This document shows, in pieces, positions 3,960 to 18,877 of a stretch of 51,130 nucleotides of DNA. Location of the stretch: positions 1-51,130 of the IMG/VR virus record IMGVR_UViG_3300043427_003381. One strand, written 5' to 3'. The notes under the pieces are model-generated. The model ran no database searches, was not told where the DNA came from, and saw only the letters and a list, made by a program, of their open reading frames with translations. This DNA comes from a virus. The position numbers and the translations under genes were made by a program. Within the stretch, counting starts at the first letter, position 1. Each line of letters begins with the position of its first letter.

Positions 3960-4679
3960 ATGCCTTTACCAAAGATTTCTACACCAACATATGAGTTGGA
4001 ATTGCCTTCTACCGGACAAAAAGTAACTTACAGACCATTTCTAGTAAGAGAAGAGAAACTATTAGTTCTTGCACTAGAATCAGAAGATACAAAACAGATT
4101 ACCTCAGCGATTAAGAGTGTAATTAAGAATTGTATTAATACAAAGGGTATAAAGGTCGAATCACTTCCGACATTTGATATTGAATACCTTTTCTTAAATA
4201 TTCGTGGCAAGTCTGTTGGGGAAGAGATTGAAGTTAATGTCATCTGCCCTGATGATGAGGAAACTTATGTTCCAGTAACTCTCAATATTGATGATATTAA
4301 AGTTCAAAAAGATGAGAACCACAGCAATAAAATTCAAGTAGATGATAGTATTGTGATGGAAATGAAGTATCCTTCACTTGAGGAGTTTATTAGAAATAAC
4401 TTTGACTTTAGTGAAGATGCTACAATGGAGCAGTCTTTTGAATTGGTTGCATCTTGTGTTGATAAAATTTACACCGAAGAAGAAGTATGGGCTGCTTCTG
4501 ATGTCACCAAAAAGGAACTAATGGAGTTCCTAGATCAAATGAACTCAAATCAATTTAAACAGATTGAGAAGTTCTTTGAGACAATGCCTAAGCTTTCTCA
4601 TACAGTTGAAGTTACAAATCCAAATACAAAAGTGAAGAGCGAAGTTGTTCTTGAGGGTCTTTCAAGTTTTTTCGCATAG
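3960..4679 (+). CDS. 26: Baseplate hub assembly protein gp26 (T4_baseplate family)
   Basis: A 239-aa protein of the T4 gp26 family, needed for hub and tail assembly. The family signature is the N-terminal segment LELPSTGQKVTYRPFLVREEK at residues 13-33, then ALESEDTKQITSAIKSVIKNCI near 38-59 and DIEYLFLNIRGKSVGEEI near 74-91. The C-terminal half is helical and acidic. The last codons are AGT TTT TTC GCA TAG. The run T TTT TTC is a textbook -1 slippery heptamer, and the -1 frame opens into the small gene at 4682-4858 with no stop between. The layout is that of a tail-assembly chaperone pair (lambda G/GT). Confidence 0.82.
   Translation: MPLPKISTPTYELELPSTGQKVTYRPFLVREEKLLVLALESEDTKQITSAIKSVIKNCINTKGIKVESLPTFDIEYLFLNIRGKSVGEEIEVNVICPDDEETYVPVTLNIDDIKVQKDENHSNKIQVDDSIVMEMKYPSLEEFIRNNFDFSEDATMEQSFELVASCVDKIYTEEEVWAASDVTKKELMEFLDQMNSNQFKQIEKFFETMPKLSHTVEVTNPNTKVKSEVVLEGLSSFFA
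4667..4673 (+). promoter_or_regulatory. Candidate programmed -1 frameshift site (T TTT TTC)
   Basis: The heptamer TTTTTTC is in the correct phase (codons TTT TTC of gp26) two codons before the TAG stop. A -1 slip re-pairs both tRNAs perfectly and continues CGC ATA GCA ATG GTC into the next reading frame, which would make a fusion of about 299 aa. I did not identify a convincing downstream pseudoknot by eye. Confidence 0.6.
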
Positions 4680-4681
4680 CA

Positions 4682-4858
4682 ATGGTCCATATGGACCTTG
4701 AAAATTATTATAAACTCAACTTTGCTTTGATGCAGTATCATAAATATTCATTATGGGAAATTGAAGGATTGATACCCTGGGAAAGGGATGTTTATGTTGC
4801 AATGTTAAAGAATTATTTGGAAGAAGAAAAAGCAAAGCAGCAGCAAAATGGGACCTGA
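4682..4858 (+). CDS. Small hub-assembly protein or frameshift extension of gp26
   Basis: A 58-aa reading frame, MVHMDLENYYKLNFALMQ at the start and then YHKYSLWEIEGLIPWERDVY, ending in a charged Lys/Gln tail. It lies in the -1 frame relative to gp26, begins three bases after the gp26 stop, and overlaps the next gene by 11 bases. There is no good ribosome-binding site near its ATG, so it is made either by coupling or by frameshifting at the slippery site upstream. The helical Trp/Glu-rich sequence is like the short downstream halves of tail-assembly chaperone pairs. It occupies the place of T4 gene 51 (hub assembly catalyst), but I cannot claim homology. Confidence 0.72.
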   Translation: MVHMDLENYYKLNFALMQYHKYSLWEIEGLIPWERDVYVAMLKNYLEEEKAKQQQNGT

Positions 4859-7058
4859 CGAACTCGATGACCTACTAAACAATAACGGAGCGGGACCTGG
4901 AAAAGGATCCGCTCTTGCTTTGTATGAAGGAACGAGAGAGGAGGACCTGGTTGATGAAGAGATTGATGAAAGGGTATTAGGACTTTTAGGATTAGAAGAT
5001 GTTTTTGATATTGACTACGGCACATACATAACTCTTCTCAAAGAAAGACTTGCAGCTTCTAGGAATTTTGAAAAGAAATTATCCTCTGAAGAAGATGAAC
5101 TTCTTGTATCAGAGTTTAGAAGAGTAAAAGGTAAGGTTGGTAGATTTAAGTTAAAAAAAAGAAAAGTAACATCAGAAGATATTGGCGTAACTGGCCCAAT
5201 CAAAGTATCATCTAGTAAGTTTTTGCTTGCTGGTAAAGCAGTAATACCAGAAAGAGAAGCAACAGAATCTTCTAGTGATATTGCAGATATTCAAAAATCA
5301 CTTGATGCTATCCTTAAAACTCTCACTCTGCAGAATAAGGATAAGAAGAAAGCAAGTGAAGATGAGAGAAAGAAAAGTGAAGATAGAAGAAGAAGAGCAA
5401 GAGAAGGTGATTTAGAAAAACCACTGTCCCAATTAAAATCACTCGCTCAGAAAATCATTGCTCCAGCACAAGGAATACTTGACCGTATCTTTAGGTTTAT
5501 TAAATTTACATTACTTGGTTATGCATTTAATCAATTAGTAAAGTGGTTTAGTGACCCCAAGAATGCAGAAAAGGTAAAAGTTCTTGGTAGATTTCTAAAG
5601 GACTGGTGGCCTGCACTACTCTCTGCCTATGTATTATTTGCAACTCCTTTTGGTAAGTTTATAAGAGTAACTCTTAAACTGTTGAGAGGATTTATTCCTC
5701 GAATAGCTAGGTTTATTGCAGCAAATCCTAAGGTATTTGCCACAGTTGCTCTAGTTGGAGGATCTGTTGTAGCTGGAACTTATCTAGAATCTAGGTCAAG
5801 AGGAGTTGATGAAAACTTATTGCAGAGAAGAATTCAAGAATCAAAAGATCAGGGCAAACCATTATCAAAGGAAGATATTGAAAAAACTAGATTAGAAAAT
5901 TTACAAAAAAGAGTTGAAGATATTAGAGGGACTAACATACCAGGATCTGCTCTTGCTGGTGGAGGAATTGTTCCTAGACTTAGAGCTTTTACTGGTGGAG
6001 CTCAAGTTAAAAAAGAAGTAGATGTAAAAGATATTCAACCCCAAAGTAATCTAATAACTGAGGATACTGGATTAAAAGTTAAAGGTGCTGGTCCGGATAC
6101 TCAACTGGTTGCGGCAATGCCTGGAGAGGTTCTGATATCAAAAGAAGCAGTTGATACTTATGGTGCAAAATTCTTCTTAGATTTGAATAAGAAGGGTGGA
6201 GGAACTAATATTCCTAGAATGGTGAATAATATTCAACTTGCTGCTGGTGGTGGATTAATTAAGAAACCAATTAAGGCATATCAAGGCGGAGGAATGATTG
6301 GTGGTGGGAATTTGTTAAAAGGAATATATCCTGGGTATTCGCGTAGTGTTGGAGGAACCATGGCTTCCTCTGGTGGAATGGGTGGAAGTTCTAACCCTGC
6401 ATCAATGTCACCGATGAAGATAAGTTCTCTCGGGGGAATGAGTGGTTCTAGTGGTGGAATGATGCGTGGTAGTGGGGGAATGAGTGGTTCTATTGGTGGA
6501 ATGATGCGTGGTTCCATTGGTGGAGCAATGAGTGGTGCCGGTGCTTCTAGTGGTGGCGGAATGTCTATCAACAATTATAGACAATCTCAAAACACTTCTA
6601 ATAATTTCTTTATGGGTTCTAGTGGTGCAGGAAACTCTAGTAGTTTAACTAACATAATGAATACAATTAAGAACACAAGTAATTACAAGTTACCATCTAT
6701 ATCCAGTAACACACAAGAATTTGGCAGTGATAGAAATAAATTATACTCACCTCAGACTGTAGCAACACTTTCTTCAAAAAATGTTTTAAATCAAAGTGTG
6801 ATAGGAAGTAAGACCCTTCCTAACATTCAACCAATCAATATATCTCCACCCCCAACCCTCCCTGTTGCTCCTGGGCCACCAGTAATTTATACAAAGACAA
6901 CTTATACCATTCTTCCTCCAATTAAAGCCCCAAGTAAAGCACCACCTTCTGTTCCTAGAGGTTCCAAATTACCAGAATTTTCTGCATCAAGTAGCGGTGA
7001 TTCTAGATCTAAGATCGCAACAGCATTGGGTATTACCGACTTAGTGGGGGTAGTATAG
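4848..7058 (+). CDS. Tape-measure-like tail/hub protein
   Basis: 736 aa. The N-terminus is acidic (residues 1-60), followed by DIDYGTYITLLKERL near 56-70 and a basic, Lys/Glu/Arg-rich coiled region to about 190. A hydrophobic block FIKFTLLGYAFN near 215-227 and membrane-like helices at 253-325 follow. At 415-455 it has the phage tail pattern GPDTQLVAAMPGEVLISKE with a following YGAKFFLDLN, often seen near the end of tape measures. Residues 477-585 are Gly/Ser/Met-rich and 665-705 Pro-rich. By position it fills the T4 gp29 (tail length/hub) role, but the sequence is not T4-like. It shares the FTLLGY block with the next protein, so the two are probably paralogues. Confidence 0.65.
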   Translation: MGPDELDDLLNNNGAGPGKGSALALYEGTREEDLVDEEIDERVLGLLGLEDVFDIDYGTYITLLKERLAASRNFEKKLSSEEDELLVSEFRRVKGKVGRFKLKKRKVTSEDIGVTGPIKVSSSKFLLAGKAVIPEREATESSSDIADIQKSLDAILKTLTLQNKDKKKASEDERKKSEDRRRRAREGDLEKPLSQLKSLAQKIIAPAQGILDRIFRFIKFTLLGYAFNQLVKWFSDPKNAEKVKVLGRFLKDWWPALLSAYVLFATPFGKFIRVTLKLLRGFIPRIARFIAANPKVFATVALVGGSVVAGTYLESRSRGVDENLLQRRIQESKDQGKPLSKEDIEKTRLENLQKRVEDIRGTNIPGSALAGGGIVPRLRAFTGGAQVKKEVDVKDIQPQSNLITEDTGLKVKGAGPDTQLVAAMPGEVLISKEAVDTYGAKFFLDLNKKGGGTNIPRMVNNIQLAAGGGLIKKPIKAYQGGGMIGGGNLLKGIYPGYSRSVGGTMASSGGMGGSSNPASMSPMKISSLGGMSGSSGGMMRGSGGMSGSIGGMMRGSIGGAMSGAGASSGGGMSINNYRQSQNTSNNFFMGSSGAGNSSSLTNIMNTIKNTSNYKLPSISSNTQEFGSDRNKLYSPQTVATLSSKNVLNQSVIGSKTLPNIQPINISPPPTLPVAPGPPVIYTKTTYTILPPIKAPSKAPPSVPRGSKLPEFSASSSGDSRSKIATALGITDLVGVV

Positions 7059-7059
7059 A

Positions 7060-10000
7060 ATGGCAACTATAGACGCTAAAAAACTACTACCACCAAGTAA
7101 GAAAACTGCAGCGATAGAGAAACAAAAGTTTCTTGTGCCTCTGCAAAATATTTCTGTAAATAAAAAACCTGCTGGTGATTTAAGACCAGTAGATAAAGAA
7201 ACAAAATCATCTGAAGATCTTTCAATTGTAAAGAAAAAGATTAACCAGTTAAGTCTTTTACTTAATGAAAGTTATTTAATTGAAAAGAAAGATAGGGAAG
7301 CAAGAAGAAAGGCAGAAGAAAGAAGAAAGTTCGAACAAAGAGAAAAAAATATTGAGAAGAAGGTAAAGAAAAATCAAGTATCTTCTAATCTAATACCATC
7401 GATTCCGGGTCAAAGTATTTTTGACAAGATTAATCGTTTTATTGGATTTACTCTACTTGGATACTTGTTTAATAACTATGGAAAAATTCTTCCAAAACTT
7501 TTGGAATTTGGAAGTGTTTTGAAACCAGTTGGAGAATTTGTTGAAAGTTTTGCTAAAAATCTTCTTAAGGGTGCAATTGATTTTGTTGAGTTTGGTTATA
7601 AAGCATACGACCAGACAAGAGATTTTGTTAAACAAGTCGGTGGTGAAGGAGCACAGAAAACATTTGATGAGTTTTCTAAGAACTTAAATCTTTTATTGAA
7701 TGGTGCTATAGCAGCTTCAATGTTGGTTGCAAGCACATCTCCCGGAAGACCTGGTAGACCTGGAAAACCTGGAAGAATGCCTGGTGGGAAATCACCATCT
7801 TTACCAAGGAATGCAAAACTTTCTTCATATTTGGGAAGAGACGCTCAAACCAAATTAATCGAGAGAAGATATGGCAATGATGCAGCAAGAATGTATGAGG
7901 CAAGAAAGTCTCAAGGTGCATCGGCAAGTCGTGCTCGTGCTGACGTTCTTAAAAGGTTTGATAAATTTGAAGGACCACAAAGAGGTCTCGCTGGGGGAAC
8001 CGGAAAAGGTTCAATTCTATCTCGCGGATTTGGTAAGTCTGCAAATAGAGCTGCTCTTAAGGTTCTTGGTAAGACGGGAACAAGAATTGCAAAGGGTGTA
8101 TTTGGTAGAGTTCCTATCATTGGTGGTTTGTTAGACTTTGCATTCTCTCTTGCTATGGGAGAGAACCCAGGAAGAGCAGCAGCAAAAGCAGTCGGTGCTA
8201 CTGTTGGTTCTGCTTTAGGGACATTAATTCCTATTCCTGGAGTTGGAACTATTGCTGGTGGTATTCTTGGTGATATAGTTGGTGGAGCAATGTATGATGC
8301 TTTAGTTGGAAGTAAGAAACCACAAGGTCGTGCAGAAGGTGGCCAAATATCTGGTGGAAGTCAAAAGTCAGTTGCTACTTCGAGAAGAATAAAAACAACT
8401 ACAAGAAAAGCCCCACCAAGAATTCAACCACAAAAGACACAACCAGGAAAAGATGTTGGTGGAAAACTGAAGATTGAAGAACTCTATGGTAAGGATGAAC
8501 CAGGACAAAGAAGTGCATTAAGAGCACTTCGTAAGAGTTCTGAGGATGCTAAAAAGATAAAATCTATTAATGGTCTTGTTGGTTCAATGTTTGGTGCTGG
8601 TATTGATCTGGCATTAGGACAAAGACCAGATAAAAATTTACCAAAAAATCTTGGAAACATTTTTGGTTCTGTAATTTCTTCTGCAATTGATATGGAACTC
8701 AACAAATCTTTTGGTGATATTTCTAAGACTATTGCAATGGCAGGCGGTGGTGCTGTCCCTTCAAGAGAAATCGGAAGACAATTGAGTATTGGTGAAAGGA
8801 TTGGTAGTTTTATTTCAAGAGCACTTGCGATTTCTATTGAGAGCTCTGCTACAAGAATACTTCAGAATTTACGTAATGAGATGAATATGGAAGGTGATGG
8901 AACTGGAGATGGTGATGGTGGTGGGGGTGGTGATGGAGGCGGTGGAGGCGAAATCCCAGGCGATGCTCCCCCAGAAGTTAAGGCAATGCTTGAAGCAATT
9001 TCTGCTGGGGAAGGAAGTTGGGATTCTGTAAATCCATCAACAACAGTACCTGGATTAAGCAATATGACAATTGCCGATGCTCGTAAAGCTGCAATAGCAA
9101 AGGGCATAAATCAACTTGGCGGATCTGGCGCTATGGGTAAGTGGCAGCAAATGCCAGATTTCATTCTCGGAAGAGCAAGAGATTCGGGGTTAGACCCAAA
9201 TAAAGATAAATTTACTCCGGAAAATCAAACTAAAATTGCTAGAATGTTGATGGCCTCTGTTTATCCTGGAGGTGAGGCGCAACTAGTTAAAGACGCTCAG
9301 AAAGATCCAATGTCTGCCGCTGCAAAGTTAAGAGGGACTTGGCCTTCTTTGCCCGGAGGAAGGCAAGCAAATACTACAGAGAAGCAATTTAGAGAAAATT
9401 TTGCAAAAGCACTACAAACATATAAATCGCCAACTGCGAAACCAACAAAAGGAGCATGGGCAGCAGTTCTTCCAAGGGGTAATCCAGTTCTTAATGAGGG
9501 ATTTGGTTATTCTGCCTGGAGGGGTAGAGTACATGAGGGTATTGATCTTGGCGTAGATGCTAACTCGCCAGTAACCGCATTGGCAGATGGAAAAGTTGTT
9601 GATATTTATAGAAATTTTGGCACGCATGGCGATGCAGTTTTAGTTCAGCAATCTGATGGAAATGTAATGGTATATGGTCATGTTAATGCTAAAGTTAGGA
9701 TAGGAGATCCGATTAAAAAAGGACAAACTATTGCTACTGTGAAATACTGGTTACAAAGAGGTAGAGATAATACACATTTGCACTTGGAAAGACGTATTGG
9801 AAGTTCAACTGGAAGAGCTGTAGATCCAACTGGGTATTTGAATTCGCTAGTACCAAAACCAGCATCAGGTATCGCAGCAGCACCAGGAACTAAAGTATCA
9901 TTTAATGGAACTACCTTTTTTAAAGGAACTAATGGTAAGTATTATAAAATGGGACGTGGAAATGTTCCAGTTGAAGTTGATAAAGGAACTTATGATAGTG

Positions 10001-10194
10001 CAAAGTCTGGTGGAACATTGATTTCTTCTTTACAGCAAAGACCACCGGCATCACTAGCACCATCACCACCAGCAGTTGCATCATTGAATAGGTCTGGAGT
10101 TTTGGAAACAGACACAAGCAATATGATTGCAGTAGTAAAAGAAAACTATTATCTCCAGGAAATTATAACTCCAAGTCCAACACAAGTAGCGTAA
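7060..10194 (+). CDS. Tail protein with tape-measure-like N-terminus, lysozyme-like and M23 peptidase domains
   Basis: 1044 aa. Residues 1-110 are charged coiled-coil; 119-142 hold the block IFDKINRFIGFTLLGYLF shared with the upstream protein; 230-600 alternate basic, Gly-rich and hydrophobic helices. A Gly/Asp linker (611-632) leads to a lysozyme-like domain at about 637-787 (AGEGSW with E651 as candidate acid; GAMGKWQQMP near 686-695). Residues 805-930 form an M23 zinc peptidase: HEGID (H825, D829), YGH (H874) and HLHLE (H906, H908), so all metal ligands are present. It would open peptidoglycan during injection. It starts two bases after the previous gene. T4 puts lysozyme in gp5 instead. 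Confidence 0.78.
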   Translation: MATIDAKKLLPPSKKTAAIEKQKFLVPLQNISVNKKPAGDLRPVDKETKSSEDLSIVKKKINQLSLLLNESYLIEKKDREARRKAEERRKFEQREKNIEKKVKKNQVSSNLIPSIPGQSIFDKINRFIGFTLLGYLFNNYGKILPKLLEFGSVLKPVGEFVESFAKNLLKGAIDFVEFGYKAYDQTRDFVKQVGGEGAQKTFDEFSKNLNLLLNGAIAASMLVASTSPGRPGRPGKPGRMPGGKSPSLPRNAKLSSYLGRDAQTKLIERRYGNDAARMYEARKSQGASASRARADVLKRFDKFEGPQRGLAGGTGKGSILSRGFGKSANRAALKVLGKTGTRIAKGVFGRVPIIGGLLDFAFSLAMGENPGRAAAKAVGATVGSALGTLIPIPGVGTIAGGILGDIVGGAMYDALVGSKKPQGRAEGGQISGGSQKSVATSRRIKTTTRKAPPRIQPQKTQPGKDVGGKLKIEELYGKDEPGQRSALRALRKSSEDAKKIKSINGLVGSMFGAGIDLALGQRPDKNLPKNLGNIFGSVISSAIDMELNKSFGDISKTIAMAGGGAVPSREIGRQLSIGERIGSFISRALAISIESSATRILQNLRNEMNMEGDGTGDGDGGGGGDGGGGGEIPGDAPPEVKAMLEAISAGEGSWDSVNPSTTVPGLSNMTIADARKAAIAKGINQLGGSGAMGKWQQMPDFILGRARDSGLDPNKDKFTPENQTKIARMLMASVYPGGEAQLVKDAQKDPMSAAAKLRGTWPSLPGGRQANTTEKQFRENFAKALQTYKSPTAKPTKGAWAAVLPRGNPVLNEGFGYSAWRGRVHEGIDLGVDANSPVTALADGKVVDIYRNFGTHGDAVLVQQSDGNVMVYGHVNAKVRIGDPIKKGQTIATVKYWLQRGRDNTHLHLERRIGSSTGRAVDPTGYLNSLVPKPASGIAAAPGTKVSFNGTTFFKGTNGKYYKMGRGNVPVEVDKGTYDSAKSGGTLISSLQQRPPASLAPSPPAVASLNRSGVLETDTSNMIAVVKENYYLQEIITPSPTQVA

Positions 10195-18805: not shown

Positions 18806-18877
18806 GCCCTTGTAGCTCAGTGGTAGAGCAACGGTTTTGTAAACCGTTGGCCGTCTGTTCGAATCAGATCGGGGGCT
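18806..18877 (+). tRNA. tRNA-Thr(UGU)
   Basis: 72 nt cloverleaf without intron. The acceptor stem GCCCTTG pairs with CGGGGGC using two T.G pairs; the D arm is GCTC...GAGC; the anticodon arm is ACGGT-TTTGTAA-ACCGT with anticodon TGT; the T loop is TTCGAAT. No CCA is encoded. Confidence 0.93.

Follow-up and report, generated by a model that had tools for sequence, protein, structure and literature searches.

A putative programmed -1 frameshift joining gp26 to a gp51-like domain in cyanophage-type T4-like phages

The gp26 junction and its surroundings

The window, by which we mean the whole stretch of DNA analysed, comprises the 51,130 bases of a virus record, and all positions are numbered within it. 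The virus is T4-like and of the cyanophage type; judged by gp26, its nearest cultured relatives are T4-like phages of marine Synechococcus and Prochlorococcus, with SynMITS9220M01 at 77% identity. Only one gp26-type gene was found in the record, which is a fragment, and its 3' end reads GAG GGT CTT TCA AGT TTT TTC GCA TAG (Table 1). The preliminary description had reported a heptamer, T TTT TTC, in phase near the gp26 stop and a -1 frame open from there into a 58-aa frame. Both features are present: one sense codon separates the heptamer from the TAG, and the -1 frame runs from the heptamer to position 4858 without a stop, taking in the 58-aa ORF at 4682-4858. Joined in silico, gp26 and the -1 frame give a protein of exactly 299 aa, the size that had been estimated for the fusion. 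Since the small frame matches phrog_634, the family of the “baseplate hub assembly catalyst” gp51 of T4, it is not a random ORF. A T4-like layout, with separate short and long genes, was not found in the window, where the -1 frame holds the extra domain only and not a separate long gene.

Table 1. Coordinates of the features at the gp26 junction and of the divergent junctions in relatives
Feature	Position	Strand	Remarks
gp26-like gene, putative short tail assembly chaperone (TAC-N), 239 aa	3960..4679	+	phrog_150 E 6e-83; PF12322 E 7e-77
GAGGG, internal Shine-Dalgarno-like run, candidate stimulator	4653..4657	+	9 nt before heptamer in window
Slippery heptamer T TTT TTC	4667..4673	+	phase suits tandem -1 slip; 174/178 loci; third bases fixed
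-1 frame, gp51-like C-terminal domain of the putative long form (TAC-C)	4667..4858	+	phrog_634 E 4e-27; stop TGA 4856-4858
TAG stop of short form	4677..4679	+	1 sense codon past heptamer; position kept in relatives
5-bp hairpin GGTCC-ATAT-GGACC, candidate stimulator	4684..4697	+	10 nt after heptamer
Next ORF, 736 aa, candidate tape measure or tail-tube-lumen protein	4848..7058	+	matches unknown-function families only
Ackermann-like junction with TAATG overlap, without heptamer	L090 2200-2215; L182 1570-1590; L189 985-1005		

A layout like that of λ G/GT had been proposed for this locus. The chaperone gene, the slippery site at its end and the short -1 frame agree with that proposal, but the next ORF, which overlaps the end of the -1 frame, gave no match to a tape-measure family. 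In Caulobacter phage Cr30, a gene annotated as tape measure lies one gene after the chaperone pair. The N-terminal parts of the ORF at 4848-7058 and of the one at 7060-10194 both match phrog_35997, as if a tail protein had been duplicated, and the second of these ORFs also has endolysin- and metallo-endopeptidase-like stretches. A single tRNA gene was found in the window, a tRNA-Thr (anticodon TGT) at 18806-18877.

A search of PDB structures with the gp26 sequence profile gave no significant match. The gp26 structural model (pLDDT 86.6) matches, among viral models, gp26 homologues and one gp51 homologue. Its sole high-probability match in the PDB is the HK97 tail assembly chaperone 2ob9_B (probability 0.85; 62 columns, rmsd 2.8 Å), at an E-value of 0.73 that falls short of significance. 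The model is thus suggestive of a fold like that of the HK97 chaperone but not decisive. The -1 domain is modeled as a small helical unit (pLDDT 82.7), and a fold search with this TAC-C model returned nothing significant.

Conservation of the heptamer and candidate stimulators

T TTT TTC occurs in frame only twice in the 18,055 codons that make up the window's 56 ORFs, and the copy at the end of gp26 is the only one lying 10 codons or fewer from a stop; its placement exceeds what chance would give. A minus-strand ORF of 103 aa (plus-strand start 24638) carries an in-frame T TTT TTA three codons before its stop.

Conservation was assessed in loci retrieved by gp26 similarity only, so that the junction itself was not selected for. 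All of the 80 nearest IMG/VR relatives have T TTT TTC followed by one sense codon and the stop. In the wider set of 178 loci, 174 have T TTT TTC, three have T TTT TTT and one has no heptamer. T TTT TTC was confirmed individually in S-SCSM1, P-SSM2, S-CAM9, S-RIM2, MA01, BUCT-ZZ01, Aeh1, Stenotrophomonas phage Bhz51, Nitratidesulfovibrio phage SRB7757, Vibrio phage D486, Aeromonas phage 65, nt-1, Milchi, S-CAM4, Sf-FR1 and S-SCSM2R. Sinorhizobium phage phiM7 and Caulobacter phage Cr30 have T TTT TTT, and Pseudoalteromonas phage XG4 has T TTT TTA, which alters the second amino acid and leaves the run slippery. Searches for further relatives with the gp26 of BUCT-ZZ01 and of the Nitratidesulfovibrio phage as queries found none.

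Site and phase are therefore kept across diverged relatives, in nearly all the T4-like cyanophages examined, the check that the preliminary description had proposed, and also in far more distant T4-like phages. The exceptions (loci L081, L090, L182 and L189) are of the two kinds to which that description had looked for contrary evidence, namely homologues with a mutated T run or with the second frame in another phase. Three Ackermann-like phages (Vibrio 1.255.O, Vibrio K448 and Pseudomonas Cygsa01) lack the heptamer and have a TAATG stop-start overlap instead. In S-SCSM1 (L081, MK867354.2, 2215-2260) the heptamer is kept, but an 11-nt insertion follows the gp26 stop; the -1 frame closes after 6 codons and the gp51-like domain lies in the +1 frame. 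This insertion may reflect a true loss or may be an error in the sequence.

One could envision the T run as a chance product of a conserved Phe-Phe pair in gp26 and of AT-rich codon use. The pair is indeed nearly invariant at the protein level; its codons, however, are fixed to a degree that makes this explanation negligible. Among 109 non-redundant relatives the first Phe codon of the site is TTT in 108/108 and the second TTC in 107/109, whereas Phe outside the site is encoded by 69.5% TTT and 30.5% TTC, and the share of TTT at other conserved Phe columns of gp26 ranges from 26 to 94%. Phe-Phe pairs elsewhere in gp26 are mainly TTC TTT, with TTT TTC in only 1 of 118. The third bases are fixed at the heptamer while flanking codons vary synonymously. 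The T that opens the heptamer is preserved as well: the preceding Ser codon is AGT or TCT in the 80 nearest relatives, never losing its final T, and across the 178-locus set, wherever T TTT TTC occurs, the preceding codon is AGT, TCT, GAT, GCT, GGT, AAT or ACT, always NNT whatever the amino acid.

The same run of six T could in principle join the two frames by slippage of RNA polymerase rather than of the ribosome. Transcriptional slippage usually needs eight or more T, for which six is short. Moreover, the run stays at six T with a terminal C in nearly all loci and keeps the codon phase that a ribosomal heptamer requires, which renders this mechanism highly improbable.

Two elements flanking the heptamer are candidate stimulators. 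The Shine-Dalgarno-like run lies 9-10 nt upstream among the relatives; the mean energy of 8-mer pairing with the anti-Shine-Dalgarno sequence is about -6.9 kcal/mol at the run versus about 0 over gp26. The Glu codon within it is GAG in 69% of relatives, as against 12-31% at other conserved Glu columns, although a conserved Glu-Gly pair accounts for part of the signal. Downstream, folding z-scores are lowest for the 55-nt segment that begins with the heptamer, where they average -1.44 and 39% of them fall below -2. In the clade of the window the hairpin covaries: 87% of its cells are paired and 29 double changes were counted versus 12.3 in shuffles, a count that coding constraint and relatedness can inflate. 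A search for one downstream structure common to all clades did not find any, other clades having other hairpins or none, and Rfam yielded no known frameshift element. We infer that the upstream run and, in the window's clade, the small hairpin probably help the slip.

Selection on the -1 frame and the origin of its product

The -1 frame is open past the gp26 stop in 173 of 174 complete relatives, for 58-71 codons counted from the heptamer, and leads into a conserved domain whose first residues after the slip, FFR[IL]xL, are common to most clades. Pairwise dN/dS (50 pairs) is 0.086 for the -1 domain and 0.087 for gp26; the frame is under purifying selection like that on gp26.

Such a domain might be made from a separate gene, by termination and reinitiation at ATG 4682 or ATG 4691, with the heptamer being incidental. 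Many public records do annotate the gp51-like frame as a separate CDS, in 94 loci the fifth codon of the -1 frame is an ATG, and some distant phages have TAATG or TGATG overlaps. However, the small frame lacks a ribosome-binding site of its own, as had been noted: no Shine-Dalgarno run was seen 4-12 nt before either ATG. ATG 4682 is not conserved among the 80 nearest IMG/VR relatives, the entire -1 frame of one locus (L088) is free of ATG, GTG and TTG, and in many S-RIM2-type loci the first ATG comes at codon 21 or later, within the conserved domain. A separate gene would also leave unexplained both the fixed heptamer and the single fused gp51 of T4. We consider this explanation very unlikely. 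Of the readings weighed here, a chance T run, polymerase slippage and a domain encoded only by a gene of its own were put aside.

A combination of the two routes fares somewhat better while still being improbable. A -1 frameshift would make the fusion and reinitiation would yield some free gp51-like domain in addition. KVP40-like Vibrio phages, phiM7, Cr30 and Sf-FR1 have the heptamer together with a TAATG overlap, and an ATG just past the stop is frequent in cyanophages. Given this nearby ATG in many relatives, a free gp51 product is possible there; the phages without any start codon in that place, on the other hand, argue that it is not general.

No joined gp26-gp51 CDS was found among the records examined. 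In those of S-CAM4 (L191 1002-1179), S-PRM1 (L193 602-785) and ACG-2014d (L194 602-788), the gp51-like -1 frame is unannotated and a gap of about 180 nt separates gp26 from the next gene.

Two proteins from one gene or from two

The relationship with T4 is visible when its proteins are aligned to the profile of the in-silico fusion. T4 gp26 aligns up to the junction only, as a short form, while T4 gp51 is collinear from its N-terminal part, across the junction, into the gp51 domain. The T4 proteins are homologues of the two forms predicted here: gp26 corresponds to the short form and gp51 to the whole fusion. In T4 the two genes lie on opposite strands and gene 26 ends in GAG TTC TTT GAG TTA CTA TAA, without a slippery run. 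The divergent pair is also found in CHI14 and JSE, whereas CfP1 has a long gene 51 directly followed by a short gene 26. These layouts indicate that Tevenvirinae-type phages make the two forms from two genes. The arrangement in Citrobacter phage CfP1 (L184 3001-4294) is a tandem with overlapping genes, unlike the divergent pair of T4. Thus, T4 and other Tevenvirinae encode the two forms separately and no longer carry the slippery run, where the window has one gene and a -1 frame. The preliminary description had placed T4-type gp26 in the G/GT scheme, which very probably holds for cyanophage-type relatives but not for T4 itself, with its two genes.

In the gp26 tree, the frameshift-type sequences group together, apart from the Tevenvirinae-type two-gene sequences, and the three heptamer-less Ackermann-like sequences fall into a single group that branches from within the frameshift type. 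This branching suggests that the Ackermann-like phages lost the heptamer later, although several inner branches are weak and some end branches are long. It is tempting to speculate, at slightly less than even odds, that -1 frameshifting at NNT TTT TTH, on a dnaX-like site with Shine-Dalgarno-like and hairpin stimulators, was ancestral in the T4-like supergroup, and that the two-gene and stop-start arrangements were later replacements. This reading runs contrary to a 2016 review, which describes the G-T frameshift as a widely conserved feature of long-tailed phages “except T4” (PMC5009743).

The T4-type gp26 and gp51 proteins had been identified as tail assembly chaperones by Vladimirov, Gautam and Davidson (2022), according to PMC10885494 and PMC12846349, which both cite that work. 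The PRFect paper (PMC10885494) cites it for T4-like phages, some of which have, instead of frameshifting, one short chaperone gene and one long, fused one; PMC12846349 cites it for frameshift signals of the poly-T kind in the TAC-N genes of this phage group. On a safe reading, then, this kind of frameshift, present in many tailed phages, and the T4-like chaperones were already known, and novelty is limited; the contribution of this analysis is to support the heptamer with counts over a broad set of phages and to describe its possible stimulators and the exceptions.

With a probability of about 0.9, we favor a programmed -1 ribosomal frameshift at T TTT TTC, predicted from these sequence comparisons, which would give two tail assembly chaperones from one gene. 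The majority of ribosomes would terminate at the TAG and release gp26 as the short form (TAC-N). In a minority, both Phe tRNAs would slip back one base on the heptamer, and these ribosomes would append the gp51-like domain to give the long form (TAC-NC). Both gp26 and gp26-51 look like short and long chaperones; by analogy with λ gpG/gpGT, they might, as the tail is assembled, hold on to the tape measure protein and recruit subunits of the tube or hub. T4-like cyanophages would thereby gain a concrete tail-chaperone pair, and the long-puzzling assembly “catalyst” gp51 would be explained as the long form of a chaperone. Recoding and gene duplication would have swapped places for the same two proteins. 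The comparison further suggests that in many cyanophage records the C-terminus of the long form is falsely listed as a gene of its own, or is not listed at all.

The layout of the site is that of the -1 element of Escherichia coli dnaX, with a Shine-Dalgarno-like run about 10 nt upstream, a heptamer and a hairpin downstream; the dnaX shift, however, shortens its product whereas the one proposed here lengthens it, and the heptamer of the window is U-rich. The slip site of λ, too, is a different one, G GGA AAG as against T TTT TTC. Like λ gpG/gpGT, P2 gpE/E+E' and HK97 gp13/gp14 (reviewed in PMC5009743), the locus has a short chaperone gene with a -1 slip site at its very end and an open -1 frame that adds a C-terminal domain, within a tail gene cluster. 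In contrast to those systems, the short protein is larger (gp26 has 239 aa) and the domain that the shift would add, at about 60 aa, is smaller; no sequence similarity to their chaperones was seen. A further parallel is found in the Vandenendeviridae and Andersonviridae, which are other phage families and whose motif is GTTTTT rather than T TTT TTC. In these myoviruses, too, a poly-T slip site is conserved close to the end of the TAC-N gene, and the -1 frame is not interrupted (PMC12846349).
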